A DNA stretch of 64,000 bases, taken from Sulfuricurvum sp. Its GTDB lineage: Bacteria; Campylobacterota; Campylobacteria; Campylobacterales; Sulfurimonadaceae. A model generated the notes under the pieces. That model searched no databases. It saw only the letters and a list, made by a program, of their open reading frames with translations, and had not been told where the DNA came from. Positions 33,173-38,283 of this stretch are shown in pieces. The translations under genes were made by a program, and so were the position numbers. Each line of letters begins with the position of its first letter. The first letter of the stretch is position 1. The stretch spans positions 1 through 64,000 of the forward strand of contig NZ_JAQTNN010000006.1 in NCBI RefSeq assembly GCF_028713855.1. Direction: 5' to 3'.

Positions 33173-33893
33173 GACTTTGAGCATCAGGATTACAGGCGAT
33201 CTTATGCTCCATATCAACTTTCTCATATCCCTCTAACTCACGACGTGATGCAAGCGTCGCATTGCGATACCCCTCTCCCGCATTAAGATAGATATTAAAC
33301 CCGTTTTCATAAAGTGCTAACCGTGTAGCCAAAGCAGTCGAATAGGTTGTAACAACCCCCTCCTCTCCCATCAGCCGTGCGACATCGGCAAAATATTCCC
33401 GTGTCCACAACATCGGATTGGTCGAAGGGCTAAAGGCATCCTGATAGCAAACATCCCATTCTCCCTCTAACTCCCGCATCGCAACCCGCGCATCCATAAT
33501 ATCGACGGTGATCTGAGTCCTCTCATCCTCGTAACCGCCTAATGTAGCGATGTCAGTGATGATGTTTCGGTAGGGTTCGAAGATTTCAGGATAAGGAAAA
33601 CTCTCCAGAGAGGCAACCAAATCACCGTCAAGTTCGGGGGAGTAGATTTCAAGTGTCGTGCCGGGGAAATAGGTATCACGGTAATAAAGGCTCAAAAGGG
33701 TATTAAATCCCAGACCGAAACAGATGTCGATGAGTCGGAGGTGATCTTTCTCACAGTGCAATTTGAAAGCAGGTTCAATATGTTTTTTGAGCGATTCGTT
33801 GAGAGCACCGTCTTTGGTCGAGTGATAGTGTTCGTCGTATTCGCTGCTGTACGCCGTGTAACTGCCATCCTCACTTTGTACCCATTTTTTCAT
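33147..33893 (-). CDS. MnmD-like SAM-dependent tRNA methyltransferase
   Basis: 248 residues resembling the stand-alone methyltransferase half of MnmC. SAM loop DICFGLGFNTLL near residue 56 replaces the usual GFGTGLNFL, and the family motif DAFSPSTNPMLWTREYF lies near residue 153. The expected reaction is nm5U34 to mnm5U34 in tRNA, following MnmEG. It is the fourth gene of a luxS-led operon, overlapping its neighbour by 4 bases. Confidence 0.75.
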   Translation of the reverse strand: MKKWVQSEDGSYTAYSSEYDEHYHSTKDGALNESLKKHIEPAFKLHCEKDHLRLIDICFGLGFNTLLSLYYRDTYFPGTTLEIYSPELDGDLVASLESFPYPEIFEPYRNIITDIATLGGYEDERTQITVDIMDARVAMRELEGEWDVCYQDAFSPSTNPMLWTREYFADVARLMGEEGVVTTYSTALATRLALYENGFNIYLNAGEGYRNATLASRRELEGYEKVDMEHKIACNPDAQSLSDENLAL

Positions 33894-34363
33894 AATCCAT
33901 TACCCCACATATGCATCTTTTTTGCCACAATAACCTCATACCCCTCTATCAAATCGGTCATTGCATTGATCGCCCGAAATTCGGCTTGATCGAGCAGTTC
34001 TTCCACCTCAGTAATCGGCATAGAACCATTTTTTTGGAGAATAATAATCTCGGAAGCATTCAAAAGTATGCGGTAAAGCAACTCTAAAAATTTGTGTGGA
34101 GATTCATGCAGATGCAATACATCCTGTACAATCACACTGGCGTAATCGCGGGGAACTCCTCCAGCAGGAGATTTATAATCTTTGATCGTAAAAGTTTTAT
34201 GCAAAATGTTTAGACTCTGATGATCCCCCGGAAAAAGTGAACCATCAATCAACCCCTCATAGGGAGCGAGGAAATCACCCAACTCCTCCGTCATAGAATC
34301 CAAATGGCTTGTCACCACCATAATTTTCGTATGGGGTGTCGGATGGAGAAGTGAAGTGATCAT
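33890..34363 (-). CDS. Degenerate methyltransferase-fold protein, unknown
   Basis: 157 residues. DYASVIVQDVLHLHESPHKFLELLYRILLNASEIIIL looks like the second half of a class I methyltransferase (strand 4 acidic residue, helix, strand 5). No glycine-rich SAM loop precedes it, so catalytic activity is doubtful. ATGA-type overlaps join it to both neighbours in the luxS operon. Confidence 0.5.
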   Translation of the reverse strand: MITSLLHPTPHTKIMVVTSHLDSMTEELGDFLAPYEGLIDGSLFPGDHQSLNILHKTFTIKDYKSPAGGVPRDYASVIVQDVLHLHESPHKFLELLYRILLNASEIIILQKNGSMPITEVEELLDQAEFRAINAMTDLIEGYEVIVAKKMHMWGNGL

Positions 34364-34662
34364 AATGATAAATCGTGCAGCTCGCGGAAAAGATACGCTT
34401 CGACGATATCATCGATGGTGCGCTGTGTGTGGGCGACCAAGACCATCATCTGATTGTCGATGAACTCCATCACCGGTTCATAGTTGTTGGTGACGATCAC
34501 GGCATCGAGCCATCCGTCGATTTCAGAACGGTCAGTGTAAAAACTGATCTCAACGACACGCCCCTCTTCAACTTCGACCGTTGCCCAAAACTTTGCCGAT
34601 AAAATTCCCGTGAGTTCAGACTCCTGCGTATCATCGCCGTCCATCGGTAGCAAAAGCAACAT
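34360..34662 (-). CDS. NifX/dinitrogenase-cofactor-domain-like small protein
   Basis: 100 residues following the plan of the NifX/NafY/YjfX-type RNase H-like domain. An initial strand [11 protein letters not shown] is followed by SAKFWATVEVEEGRVVEISFY, a helix with DAVIVTNNYEPVMEFI, and an end TIDDIVEAYLFREL. The usual Cys and His metal ligands of cofactor-binding members are absent. The start overlaps the luxS stop as TAATG. Family assignment is by pattern only. Confidence 0.5.
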   Translation of the reverse strand: MLLLLPMDGDDTQESELTGILSAKFWATVEVEEGRVVEISFYTDRSEIDGWLDAVIVTNNYEPVMEFIDNQMMVLVAHTQRTIDDIVEAYLFRELHDLSL

Positions 34663-35168
34663 TATTTCTCTACCTTCGAGAGGTCAAGTTTCAACGCTTC
34701 GTTATCCATAATATCGATGTCTTTTCGGAGCACTTCGGTCGCAATCGCTTTGGCATCTTCGAGAGAGTGCATCGCACACGTTCCGCATTGGTAGATATTG
34801 AGTTCGGGGATATCGCTTTGCTTTTCCACCGCGAGAATATCTTTCATCGACGCTTCCCACGCATCAGCAACGACCTCTTCACTCGGCGTCCCGATAACGC
34901 TCATGTAAAATCCGGTACGGCATCCCATCGGAGAGATATCGATGATCTCCGTTTGAGCAGAATTGAGGTGATCGCGCATAAATCCGGCGAACAAATGCTC
35001 CAAAGTATGAATCCCCTCTTGCGACAAAATCGCCTCATTCGGACGGCAAAAACGGAGGTCGAATACGGTGATATCATCCCCTTTTGGTGTTTTCATCCCT
35101 TTAGCACGACGAACGGCAGGGGCAGGCATAATGGTGTGGTCAACGGTAAAGCTATCAAGTAACGGCAT
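34662..35168 (-). CDS. luxS: S-ribosylhomocysteine lyase
   Basis: 168 residues from ATG 35168 ([11 protein letters not shown]), the standard start; a longer reading is spurious. Metal ligands H54 and H58 (HTLEH) and C128 (IYQCGTC) are intact. It splits S-ribosylhomocysteine into homocysteine and DPD, the precursor of AI-2. It opens an operon of four overlapping genes, two of them methyltransferase-like. Divergent from the aldolase gene, 96 bases away. Confidence 0.96.
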
Positions 35169-35230
35169 GATAATCCTTAAAAATTCATCTTTAATGGTGG
35201 CAATAGTAACATATTTCATCCTTGCATCGC

Positions 35231-35236
35231 TATAAT
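35231..35236 (+). promoter_or_regulatory. -10 box of the aldolase-lsrG operon
   Basis: ATCGCTATAATTTGC contains TATAAT 28 bases before the aldolase ATG, with AAAAGGA as ribosome binding site. It lies in the luxS/aldolase divergent region, so a regulator here could act on both. Confidence 0.6.
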
Positions 35237-35264
35237 TTGCCCACTAATAAAAGGAACTCAAATT

Positions 35265-36437
35265 ATGACAAGCCTCTTTGACGATACAATCGCCGAGCAA
35301 TACCAAAATGACCCGCTTGCTATGAGAGTCTATACCTCGCAACTCTTGGGTCAGAGCAAAGAGTTAGTTCTCCACGGTGGCGGAAACACCTCGGTGAAAA
35401 TCGATAATATCCTCTACGTCAAGGGATCTGGCTGGAATCTCGATACGATCGAAAAGGGGGGATTTTCTCCTGTAAACCTCGATGTACTTCTCGAAATGGC
35501 GACCCGCGAAACTCTCAGTGATACCCAAATGGTCGCCGAACAACGTGCTGCGATGGCAGATCAAAGTTACCCGAACCCCTCCATCGAAGCGATTCTCCAC
35601 GCTATCATCCCGTATGATTACGTCGACCATACCCATGCCGATGCCGTCGTCACCCTCACCAATACTCCTAACGCTAAAGTGTTAGTGCAAAAGCTATACG
35701 GGGAGAGTATGCTCATCATCGATTACGTGATGCCCGGGTTTGAGCTGGCAAAACATATCTATGAGGTCACCCGTAACATCGACTGGGACACCATCTCAGG
35801 GATGATTCTGATGCATCACGGCGTCTTTACGTTTGATAACGATGCACGTCGTGCCTATGAGAAAATGATCGACATTGTCACCGTTGCCGAGGAGTATTTG
35901 AGTGAGCGCGTTACATTGGCATGCGGAGATTGTGAGGGGAAAAGCGACCCTTCTCTTCCAAAAGCTGTTGCTTTAGAAGTCGAAAAACTTTGCGGATACG
36001 AAGTGTTCCCCCTTATCATCGATTCACCGCGTGCACAACTCTTTAGCATTCTCCCTAACCTCGAAACTCTGGTCAAAAAAGGGGGATTAACCCCTGAACA
36101 CGTTATCCGTATCAAACCCTTCCCCGCTATCATCGATAACAATATCGCAGAGGGGATCGCTCATTTTGCAAAAGAGTACAAAGCCTATTTCGACGCCAAT
36201 GCCTCTTCAGATCATATCTGCCTCGATCTTGCCCCACGTTATGTGGTTATAAAAGGAGTCGGGATAGTTGTACTGGGTAAAGATGAAAAAGAGTCCCGTA
36301 TCATCGGTGAAATTGTTAAACATACCATTACCGCTATCCTCTCAGCCGAACAGCTCGGAGGATGGGGATCTCTCACATTGGCTCAGATGTTCGAAATGGA
36401 ATACTGGGAATTAGAACAAGCAAAACTCAAAAAATAA
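35265..36437 (+). CDS. Class II aldolase, RhaE-type, in an AI-2 gene cluster
   Basis: 390 residues. N-terminal class II aldolase/adducin domain (about 1-230): phosphate-loop HGGGNTSVKI near 37, YVKGSGWNL near 51, metal ligands H122 and H124 (DHTHAD) and a third His at 184/185 (MHHGVF). It resembles the aldolase half of bifunctional RhaEW (rhamnulose-1-phosphate aldolase/dehydrogenase) but has no dehydrogenase half. A C-terminal 150-residue domain follows. With LsrK and LsrG-like genes beside it, cleavage of a phosphorylated DPD derivative is a reasonable guess, not shown. Confidence 0.8.
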   Translation: MTSLFDDTIAEQYQNDPLAMRVYTSQLLGQSKELVLHGGGNTSVKIDNILYVKGSGWNLDTIEKGGFSPVNLDVLLEMATRETLSDTQMVAEQRAAMADQSYPNPSIEAILHAIIPYDYVDHTHADAVVTLTNTPNAKVLVQKLYGESMLIIDYVMPGFELAKHIYEVTRNIDWDTISGMILMHHGVFTFDNDARRAYEKMIDIVTVAEEYLSERVTLACGDCEGKSDPSLPKAVALEVEKLCGYEVFPLIIDSPRAQLFSILPNLETLVKKGGLTPEHVIRIKPFPAIIDNNIAEGIAHFAKEYKAYFDANASSDHICLDLAPRYVVIKGVGIVVLGKDEKESRIIGEIVKHTITAILSAEQLGGWGSLTLAQMFEMEYWELEQAKLKK

Positions 36438-36448
36438 GGAATATATAG

Positions 36449-36754
36449 ATGAAAATTACGAAAAAAGTGACCTTTATCGCCAAAGAAGAGCACATCGCAA
36501 CGGTGAAAAAATTATTGGAAGATATGGTTGCCCCATCGCTGAAAGAACCGGGATGTCTGTTTTATTACATCTTCCAATCCCAAAACAATCCGCGTAAATT
36601 CTTCGCGGTCGAATCGTGGGCAGATGAGGAGTCACTAGAGGGGCATAAATACACGGAACACTATGCCTACTACAAATCGCACTATGAGCCGTTTGTGGAC
36701 GATAAATACACTGAAGAACTCGATTTGCTTGATCCTAAAGCGTATCAGTTCTAA
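36449..36754 (+). CDS. LsrG-like ABM-domain protein
   Basis: 101 residues of the antibiotic-biosynthesis-monooxygenase fold. LsrG-like features are PGCLFYYIFQSQNNPRKFFAVESWAD and the His pair in EGHKYTEHYAYY (H66, H71), which align with E. coli LsrG (FHKTTPHYKT). LsrG isomerises phospho-DPD. 11 bases after the aldolase gene, and its stop interlocks with the lsrK stop on the other strand. Confidence 0.75.
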   Translation: MKITKKVTFIAKEEHIATVKKLLEDMVAPSLKEPGCLFYYIFQSQNNPRKFFAVESWADEESLEGHKYTEHYAYYKSHYEPFVDDKYTEELDLLDPKAYQF

Positions 36755-38283
36755 ATCCCGGGAGCCTTCCACATCGGCTCCAATGTCCCCTCACGTACCA
36801 ACTCCATCTGTTTGCAGTAGACTTTGAGCCATTTTTCTTTTATCTCACCATACTGTGTATGATTTGCTAAGTTCGGCTCAAAAGTGCGTTCAATTTTGAC
36901 AATATTTTTTCCCGCTTCCTCAAAGCTTTTATAGACCCCTGCACCGATACCGCATGCCATCGCTACACCCAGTGCCGTTGCCTCTTTGACTACTGGAACA
37001 CGCACTTCTAACCCCGTCACATCGGCCAATATCTGTGACCATAATGCCCCGTTGGATGCTCCGCTCGCAAAGGTGATAGAACTAGGTGAGATGCCGCTAA
37101 AGGCTTTTATGTTTTCCAGATTGATCGCACTGACGATACATGCATTTTCTTCTAATGCGCGAAACATCGATGCGACGTTGTATTTATTTTCATCCAATCC
37201 CAGACCCACAAACGACGGAGAAGCGTGTATCCATTCACCGTAATTCATCCGATCGCTAAAGATCGGGGTGATGCCATACGATCCAAGCGGAACCGACGAC
37301 GCCAGTTTTTCAAGTTCCGCATAACTTTTTCCACATCCGAAACTGTTACGAAACCAGCGCATCACCAACCCCGTAAAAAAGGTGATTCCCTCTGCCTGTG
37401 ACATCCCTTGAACCACATGAGGATTGACCCGTAACAGCATATCGTGTGAGAGTACGGTATTGCTGGGGATATTGACCACCTGCTGCCAAAAGCTCCCTCC
37501 TAATACGACCGCATCGCCGAGCGACGAAGCGCCTAAACCTGCGGTGCCGATTTGAACATCACCGCCACCCATGACAACGAGAGTATCACGGCTGAGTCCG
37601 CATTCCAACGAAGCTTTCTCACTGATATGCCCTAAGACCTCTCCGCTCTCTTTGATCGGAACAAACAACTCTTTGAGTCCGCATTTTTGAAACTCGCTTT
37701 TTTCCCAATCGCGATTTTGTAGACTAAAAGCTCCCGCCGTTCCCGCATTGGAAGGCTCAGACGCTAACTCACTGCTGAGTTTAAAGAGTATCCAATCGCT
37801 TATCATCGTAAAGTAGTGTGCTTTTTCATAGAGAGAGGGACGATTGTTTTTCAGCCACAGCAATCGCGGTGCGGCAGAGAGGGCAAAGGTTTGCCCGCTA
37901 GAGGTATAACATTCTAATTCAAGTGTAGGATTATTTCGTTTTAGCTGAACGACTTCTTTACCTGCGCGACTGTCGACATTGGCAACACCCCAGATTTCTT
38001 GGTTATCGCTGTCATAAACCACAATCCCTTCTCGCATACTCGACGCTGACACCGCCACAATTTCGGAAGCACTGATATTTGCTTTAGCTATGGATTCTCG
38101 GATACACCGTTTTGCAAGTTCCCAACCGTGCACAAAATCAAATCCCATCGATCCCGCAACATTTTCTTCGGAAATATGCTCCCACTCGTATTGTGCAATG
38201 GAAATTTGATTCCCTAAATCATCAAAAATGATTGCACGGATACTTCCCGTCCCTGCATCTATAACCAGAAAATATCGACTCAA
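36751..38283 (-). CDS. lsrK: Autoinducer-2 kinase
   Basis: 510 residues, FGGY kinase. Similar to E. coli LsrK along the whole length: DAGTGSIRAIIFD at the start, SSMREGIVVYD, SGQTFALSAAPRLLWL, GGGDVQIG, RVNPHV, EATALGVAMACG and the final MWKAPGI. It phosphorylates DPD at C5 using ATP. Start is a TTG overlapping the stop of the small upstream gene as TTGA; no better start exists in frame. No ribosome site is strong, so coupling to the upstream gene is likely. Confidence 0.92.
   Translation of the reverse strand: MSRYFLVIDAGTGSIRAIIFDDLGNQISIAQYEWEHISEENVAGSMGFDFVHGWELAKRCIRESIAKANISASEIVAVSASSMREGIVVYDSDNQEIWGVANVDSRAGKEVVQLKRNNPTLELECYTSSGQTFALSAAPRLLWLKNNRPSLYEKAHYFTMISDWILFKLSSELASEPSNAGTAGAFSLQNRDWEKSEFQKCGLKELFVPIKESGEVLGHISEKASLECGLSRDTLVVMGGGDVQIGTAGLGASSLGDAVVLGGSFWQQVVNIPSNTVLSHDMLLRVNPHVVQGMSQAEGITFFTGLVMRWFRNSFGCGKSYAELEKLASSVPLGSYGITPIFSDRMNYGEWIHASPSFVGLGLDENKYNVASMFRALEENACIVSAINLENIKAFSGISPSSITFASGASNGALWSQILADVTGLEVRVPVVKEATALGVAMACGIGAGVYKSFEEAGKNIVKIERTFEPNLANHTQYGEIKEKWLKVYCKQMELVREGTLEPMWKAPGI

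Follow-up and report, generated by a model that had tools for sequence, protein, structure and literature searches.

The DNA analysed here (the window, 64,000 nucleotides of Sulfuricurvum sp. contig NZ_JAQTNN010000006.1) raises the question of how a bacterium with the AI-2 kinase LsrK completes the breakdown of AI-2, since it is difficult to make sense of an LsrK whose other lsr operon partners are missing. In the known route, LsrG isomerises P-DPD and LsrF then transfers an acetyl group to CoA, yielding acetyl-CoA and DHAP (PMC8016206). An earlier note on this DNA had proposed that a class II aldolase replaces LsrF and acts by retro-aldol cleavage. The replacement is well supported by genomics, through gene order, co-occurrence with LsrK across 200 genomes, contrasts within genera and searches that found neither LsrF nor RhaA, whereas the plain retro-aldol reaction does not stand. 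Among open-licence papers, none was found that deals with LsrK alongside an aldolase in Campylobacterota.

Table 1. Features of the locus, numbered from the first letter of the window
Feature	Position	Strand	Evidence
Class II aldolase of 390 aa, stand-alone, proposed to replace LsrF	35265..36437	+	ATG-to-stop ORF, Pfam, NCBIfam, AlphaFold2
Catalytic domain (residues 1-220) of the class II aldolase	35265..35924	+	PF00596; Z-scores of 30.8 (3m4r) and about 18 (FucA)
Phosphate loop G38-K45 (GGGNTSVK)	35376..35399	+	G38-S43 and K45 invariant
E108, predicted to act as acid/base, corresponding by motif to FucA E73 and DrdA E76	35586..35588	+	Invariant; role from PMC6079011
H122 and H124, predicted metal ligands	35628..35636	+	Invariant
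H185, predicted third metal ligand	35817..35819	+	Invariant
Second aldolase-fold domain (C-terminal, residues 222-390), lacking an HxH motif and common to the fused family	35928..36434	+	NCBIfam alignment, fused relatives, AlphaFold2 model
luxS, divergent from the aldolase	34662..35219	-	PF02664, E 9e-57; NF002602 above cut-off
Gap between luxS and aldolase start codons, 45 bp, presumed shared regulatory region	35220..35264	.	Sequence
LsrG-like protein of the ABM family (101 aa), proposed to isomerise phospho-AI-2	36449..36754	+	PF03992, E 3e-15
LsrK, AI-2 kinase	36751..38283	-	NF008187, 745 bits, cut-off 528; 5ya0, E 2e-170

The sole Pfam domain of the ORF is Aldolase_II (PF00596, residues 24-212, E 5e-21). 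An AlphaFold2 model built on 46 sequences (pLDDT 94.2) matches class II aldolases of known structure across residues 1-220, with Z-scores of 17.8 to DrdA with DHAP (6btg) and 16.3 to RhaD in addition to those in Table 1, and the Pfam match together with Z-scores of 16-31 places the protein in the class II aldolase superfamily fold. H122, H124, H185, E108, the GGGNTS loop (38-43) and SGW (55-57) show no variation across 24 stand-alone relatives and are also invariant in the wider set of 46 sequences, which comprises 30 stand-alone and 16 dehydrogenase-fused proteins. The histidine triad and the glutamate are predicted to form the metal-binding and catalytic site. The class II assignment, with H122 and H124 as predicted metal ligands (zinc in the earlier note), and the retained phosphate loop are thus upheld; the third ligand had been given as H184/185, and the invariant H185, not H184, is the predicted one. 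FucA and RhaD have the fold, the histidine metal triad and the class II glutamate in common with the window aldolase, but they are 15-22% identical to it, have one domain and belong to sugar operons that are absent here (RhaA in 0/49 genomes).

The ORF ends after 390 residues without a short-chain dehydrogenase (SDR) half, as had been noted. It had also been credited with a C-terminal domain of its own, which is contradicted by its fused relatives: NCBIfam models of the bifunctional aldolase/dehydrogenase family span residues 1-390, and the fused proteins carry the same C-terminal region up to an identical EYWELEQAKL end, with the SDR starting directly after it. When this part was modelled alone (pLDDT 89.6), its top matches were class II aldolases (FucA 1dzu at Z 11.1, with 138 residues superposed at an rmsd of 2.7 Å), and no HxH motif was found in its sequence. 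The protein thus comprises the whole aldolase portion of the bifunctional proteins, with a catalytic domain and an apparently dead copy of the fold, minus the dehydrogenase. We rejected membership in the bifunctional family itself (PRK08324), as the best model of that type scores 418 bits against a cut-off of 627, with profile positions 1-410 of 583 aligned and no C-terminal SDR. The aldolase part of PRK08324 (RhaEW type) matches the whole 390 residues, including both domains and the EYWELEQAKL end; in contrast to it, the window aldolase lacks the dehydrogenase and a short insert after GGGNTSVK and falls in a separate clade, and the stand-alone form is tied to LsrK where the fused form is tied to mtnK-mtnA.

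This tie begins with the gene order. The ABM gene starts 11 bp downstream of the aldolase, and lsrK is convergent, overlapping the end of the ABM gene by 4 bp. LsrK passes the AI-2 kinase equivalog cut-off and matches the E. coli LsrK structure (Table 1). The LsrG-like gene that the earlier note placed in the same operon is borne out as the downstream neighbour at the level of the ABM family (PF03992), with the protein scoring 32.7 bits against the LsrG equivalog model, below its cut-off of 135; a profile built from 22 such ABM proteins matches LsrG (3qmq) at E 4e-8, ranked after PA3566 and others. No sigma-70-like site was seen in the 45-bp gap between luxS and the aldolase, and promoter-like sites in the region are rarer than in shuffled sequence. 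The nearest named relatives of the locus are in Sulfuricurvum species, with identical gene order, and luxS is the divergent neighbour of the aldolase in Sulfuricurvum and its relatives. On the far side of luxS, before a gene for an MnmC2-like methyltransferase, lie two small ORFs of 157 and 100 aa (window positions 33890-34662, minus strand) that have no Pfam or NCBIfam match and are both conserved in two genus-mates (L031 and L032). Outside the window, a conserved Cupin_2 protein of 121-130 aa adjoins LsrK in several families (L046:15741-16115, L055:9602-9967, L059, L060, L095, L105, L037 and L086), at some of these loci without a detectable ABM gene; it is possibly another phospho-AI-2 isomerase.

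The neighbourhood also bears on where the substrate comes from. Since the window genome has no match to an LsrB-type binding protein (PF13407), which 18 of 49 genomes hold, AI-2 uptake by the canonical Lsr transporter is unlikely, and since luxS lies 45 bp away, the use of self-made DPD appears the more likely role. LsrK and an ABM protein are common to this locus and the canonical lsr operon (lsrACDBFG, lsrR, lsrK), whereas the window genome lacks LsrF and the LsrB-type binding protein and has luxS as the neighbour. The missing binding protein, together with the ABM score under the LsrG cut-off, could also be taken to mean that the kinase, ABM protein and aldolase degrade some other deoxy-pentulose or dicarbonyl with this skeleton, the LsrK-like kinase having shifted to a substrate other than AI-2; rhamnose and fucose are, as generally known, broken down by an FGGY kinase followed by a class II aldolase. 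We consider this quite improbable, as 44 of the 45 genomes of the order that carry LsrK have it well above the equivalog cut-off for AI-2 kinases, and as luxS is the divergent neighbour in Sulfuricurvum and its relatives.

LsrF itself was looked for through PF01791, and no such protein was found in the window genome. PF01791 is present in 11 LsrK-positive genomes, among them G109 and G131 (a fragment). The scan covered proteins of the other nine (G016, G022, G028, G038, G054 with one of its two copies, G069, G126, G141 and G174); these are PRK06852, and a hidden LsrF was rejected for them. The ORF was likewise rejected as LsrF itself, as its fold and family differ from the DeoC/LacD/LsrF-type barrel (PF01791). 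The window aldolase is proposed to follow LsrK and the LsrG-like protein in the pathway, as LsrF (PRK08227, the thiolase of the lsr operon) does, and to share DHAP as the expected product, but LsrF is a CoA-dependent class I-type (alpha/beta)8 barrel, while the window aldolase has the metal-type class II fold, for which CoA is not expected. A rhamnose pathway was discarded too: the earlier note had seen no rhamnose genes nearby, and rhamnose isomerase RhaA (PF06134) is absent from all 49 genomes searched (the window genome and 48 others), with the positive controls matched.

The association with LsrK was measured in 200 genomes of the order (Campylobacterales). The aldolase and LsrK each occur in 45 genomes, 41 of which hold both, with four holding each gene singly and 151 neither; Fisher values for co-occurrence ignore shared ancestry, which the within-genus contrasts correct in part. 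Two further genomes with weak aldolase matches only were left out of the 45. Six of the eight exceptions are genomes less than 90% complete, the LsrK of G131 is a fragment, and G164 has an LsrK piece at a contig end. At the genus level, 24 genera hold both genes, two LsrK only, none the aldolase only and 44 neither, such that 24 of the 26 LsrK genera hold the aldolase, and the seven genera with both kinds of member all vary concordantly (sign test, 0.008). The same survey gave 14 genomes with aldolase and mtnA, 31 with the aldolase alone, 10 with mtnA alone and 145 with neither; for PF01791 the corresponding counts were 10, 35, 30 and 125, which is not significant. Of the 45 aldolase genomes, 37 have the ABM gene and the remaining 8 gave no match at E 1e-15; it was found in two other genomes as well. 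luxS is present in 185 of the 200, making its co-occurrence uninformative, so that its adjacency alone counts. None of 14 named genomes, with one of E. coli among them, gave a match in a control search for LsrK, though that E. coli may lack lsr. In several genomes of two families (f7 and f22) the aldolase is not adjacent to LsrK. Within f7, a family of 475-500 aa proteins directly adjoins the stand-alone aldolase (L033:5908-7410, L035 and L041:9263-10690); no Pfam or NCBIfam model matches its L033 member, and LsrK lies elsewhere in those genomes.

Taken as comparative genomics, these sequence patterns strongly support a variant form of AI-2 catabolism, in which a familiar fold turns up where it was not expected. 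In these sulfur-oxidising Campylobacterota the aldolase probably finishes AI-2 breakdown by a reaction other than that of LsrF, and we think it rather likely that it acts on the LsrK-derived phospho-AI-2 intermediate. LsrK with its conserved partners in about two dozen Campylobacterota genera would then make up a complete LsrF-free route from AI-2 to central metabolites, and it becomes testable whether LuxS bacteria of this kind use AI-2 chiefly for signalling or chiefly recycle it as a by-product.

P-HPD, the proposed substrate, is CH3-CO-CHOH-CO-CH2-O-P and 5-deoxyribulose-1-phosphate is CH3-CHOH-CHOH-CO-CH2-O-P; the former is the 4-keto form of the latter, and the two differ only in how far a single carbon is oxidised. 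Because the acetyl-side carbon of P-HPD is a ketone and not a hydroxyl, the plain retro-aldol cleavage suggested earlier is inapplicable. Since that carbon is already oxidised, addition of water would instead give DHAP and acetate without CoA. In the pathway we propose, LuxS would make DPD, LsrK (assigned by family membership) would phosphorylate it, and the ABM protein would isomerise P-DPD to P-HPD, whose DHAP-like end the aldolase may bind through a metal on H122, H124 and H185 and the GGGNTS loop. The bond to the acetyl carbon would be cut and DHAP released, as water attacking the acetyl carbonyl, or a hydrate, would expel the DHAP enediolate and leave acetate, a hydrolytic retro-Claisen reaction without CoA. 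DHAP and acetate as the products are a tentative assignment that falls slightly short of an even call. If acetate rather than an aldehyde is formed, a dehydrogenase half is unneeded, which would explain its absence, and a hydrolytic C-C cleavage would be added to the class II aldolase fold.

There is a precedent for the DHAP half of this scheme in DrdA, which cleaves 5-deoxyribulose-1-phosphate to DHAP and acetaldehyde via an enediolate of DHAP bound to the metal, Glu76 serving as acid/base (PMC6079011). DrdA and Ald2 of the DHAP shunt have the class II fold in common with the window aldolase, for which a similar DHAP-releasing cleavage of a 5-deoxypentulose-1-phosphate skeleton is proposed, but they are one-domain proteins of about 200 aa with MtnK and MtnA as partners, both of which are absent from the window genome. 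Rhamnulose-1-phosphate aldolases reportedly accept ketones as electrophiles (Laurent 2018, by its title, as cited in PMC6302742), so a ketone-derived centre at that position would not be foreign to the fold. A CoA-dependent thiolase reaction on P-HPD, giving acetyl-CoA and DHAP as LsrF does from another fold, would occupy the same place in the pathway with the same DHAP product, and acetyl-CoA may be useful to an autotroph; we give it little credence, as no CoA-binding feature was recognised on inspection and no class II aldolase is known to use CoA.

The dehydrogenase-fused relatives have a different context. In a tree of 119 aldolase domains (midpoint root, silent on whether the dehydrogenase was lost or gained), all 67 stand-alone proteins lie on one side of a single branch (SH-aLRT 99) and are from Campylobacterota only. 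LsrK or the ABM gene lies within 6 kb of 52/66 stand-alone loci against 0/45 fused loci, while mtnA or mtnK is nearby at 1/66 and 13/45, respectively. Fused genes of Sulfurimonas come after mtnK (TIGR01767) and mtnA (TIGR00512), both above cut-off. Among genomes with the fused form, LsrK is present in 6/6 from Campylobacterota and 0/38 from other phyla; it is as if the LsrK genomes of the order carry a stand-alone or a fused copy, either being able to serve. Stand-alone and fused forms differ in the insert after GGGNTSVK and at positions such as E278/D, L359 and S369; no active-site residue separates them, so that a preference for P-HPD is unreadable from sequence.

Aldolase-SDR fusions named as rhamnulose-type lie in mtnK-mtnA operons of Sulfurimonas (L058:5701-9967, L117, L120, L124 and L132), and others lie beside mtnA in Bacteroidota, Planctomycetota, SAR324 and other groups (L093, L097, L128, L129, L133, L139 and L147). 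These mtnK-mtnA-linked fusions are probably a DHAP-shunt variant with a built-in dehydrogenase that processes the aldehyde, and relatives in these genomes annotated 'bifunctional rhamnulose-1-phosphate aldolase/dehydrogenase', which sit with mtnK-mtnA, look like DHAP-shunt enzymes. Because of this linkage, the family's nearest reaction in these bacteria is likely cleavage of 5-deoxyribulose- or methylthioribulose-1-phosphate, and not of rhamnulose-1-phosphate. The window protein could itself be such a DHAP-shunt aldolase in the salvage of SAM by-products, lacking the dehydrogenase and near LsrK by coincidence, given that its nearest fused relatives sit in mtnK-mtnA operons with identical active-site residues, that 35 of the 44 genomes drawn by fused loci have mtnA, and that eight stand-alone genomes have it as well. 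We regard this as improbable, since mtnA and mtnK are absent from the window genome (G000) and two sampled genus-mates (G137 and G170), 31 of 45 aldolase genomes lack mtnA, and the stand-alone loci lie mostly near LsrK or the ABM gene and almost never near mtnA or mtnK. A bolder full reading is a second, non-homologous route of AI-2 breakdown, in which a class II aldolase-fold enzyme is a CoA-independent phospho-diketone hydrolase for luxS-coupled recycling of self-made DPD, rather than quorum-sensing uptake, while its lineage serves the DHAP shunt when fused to a dehydrogenase; it is slightly more tentative still than the assignment of DHAP and acetate as products.

The fate of the dehydrogenase follows mtnA in the fused proteins of Campylobacterota. 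The SDR is full-length in ten genomes, every one of which has mtnA. In three others (G157, L070:1067-2740; G007, L071:98-1747; G217, L123:3822-5546) the SDR part is degenerate, reduced to 150-180 aa that have lost the NAG and YSVAK motifs and are still in frame, while the aldolase part keeps its motifs and LsrK is present in all three. mtnA was not found in G007 and G217 and is split over two frames in G157, which could be an assembly error in a genome 79% complete in 460 contigs. The ten and three genomes are fully sorted by SDR state and mtnA (p 0.003, ignoring ancestry). Most simply read, the dehydrogenase is there for the mtnKA route, and the aldolase is retained for LsrK. A protein from Opitutales (L108:10001-11740) likewise has a degenerate SDR behind an intact aldolase part.
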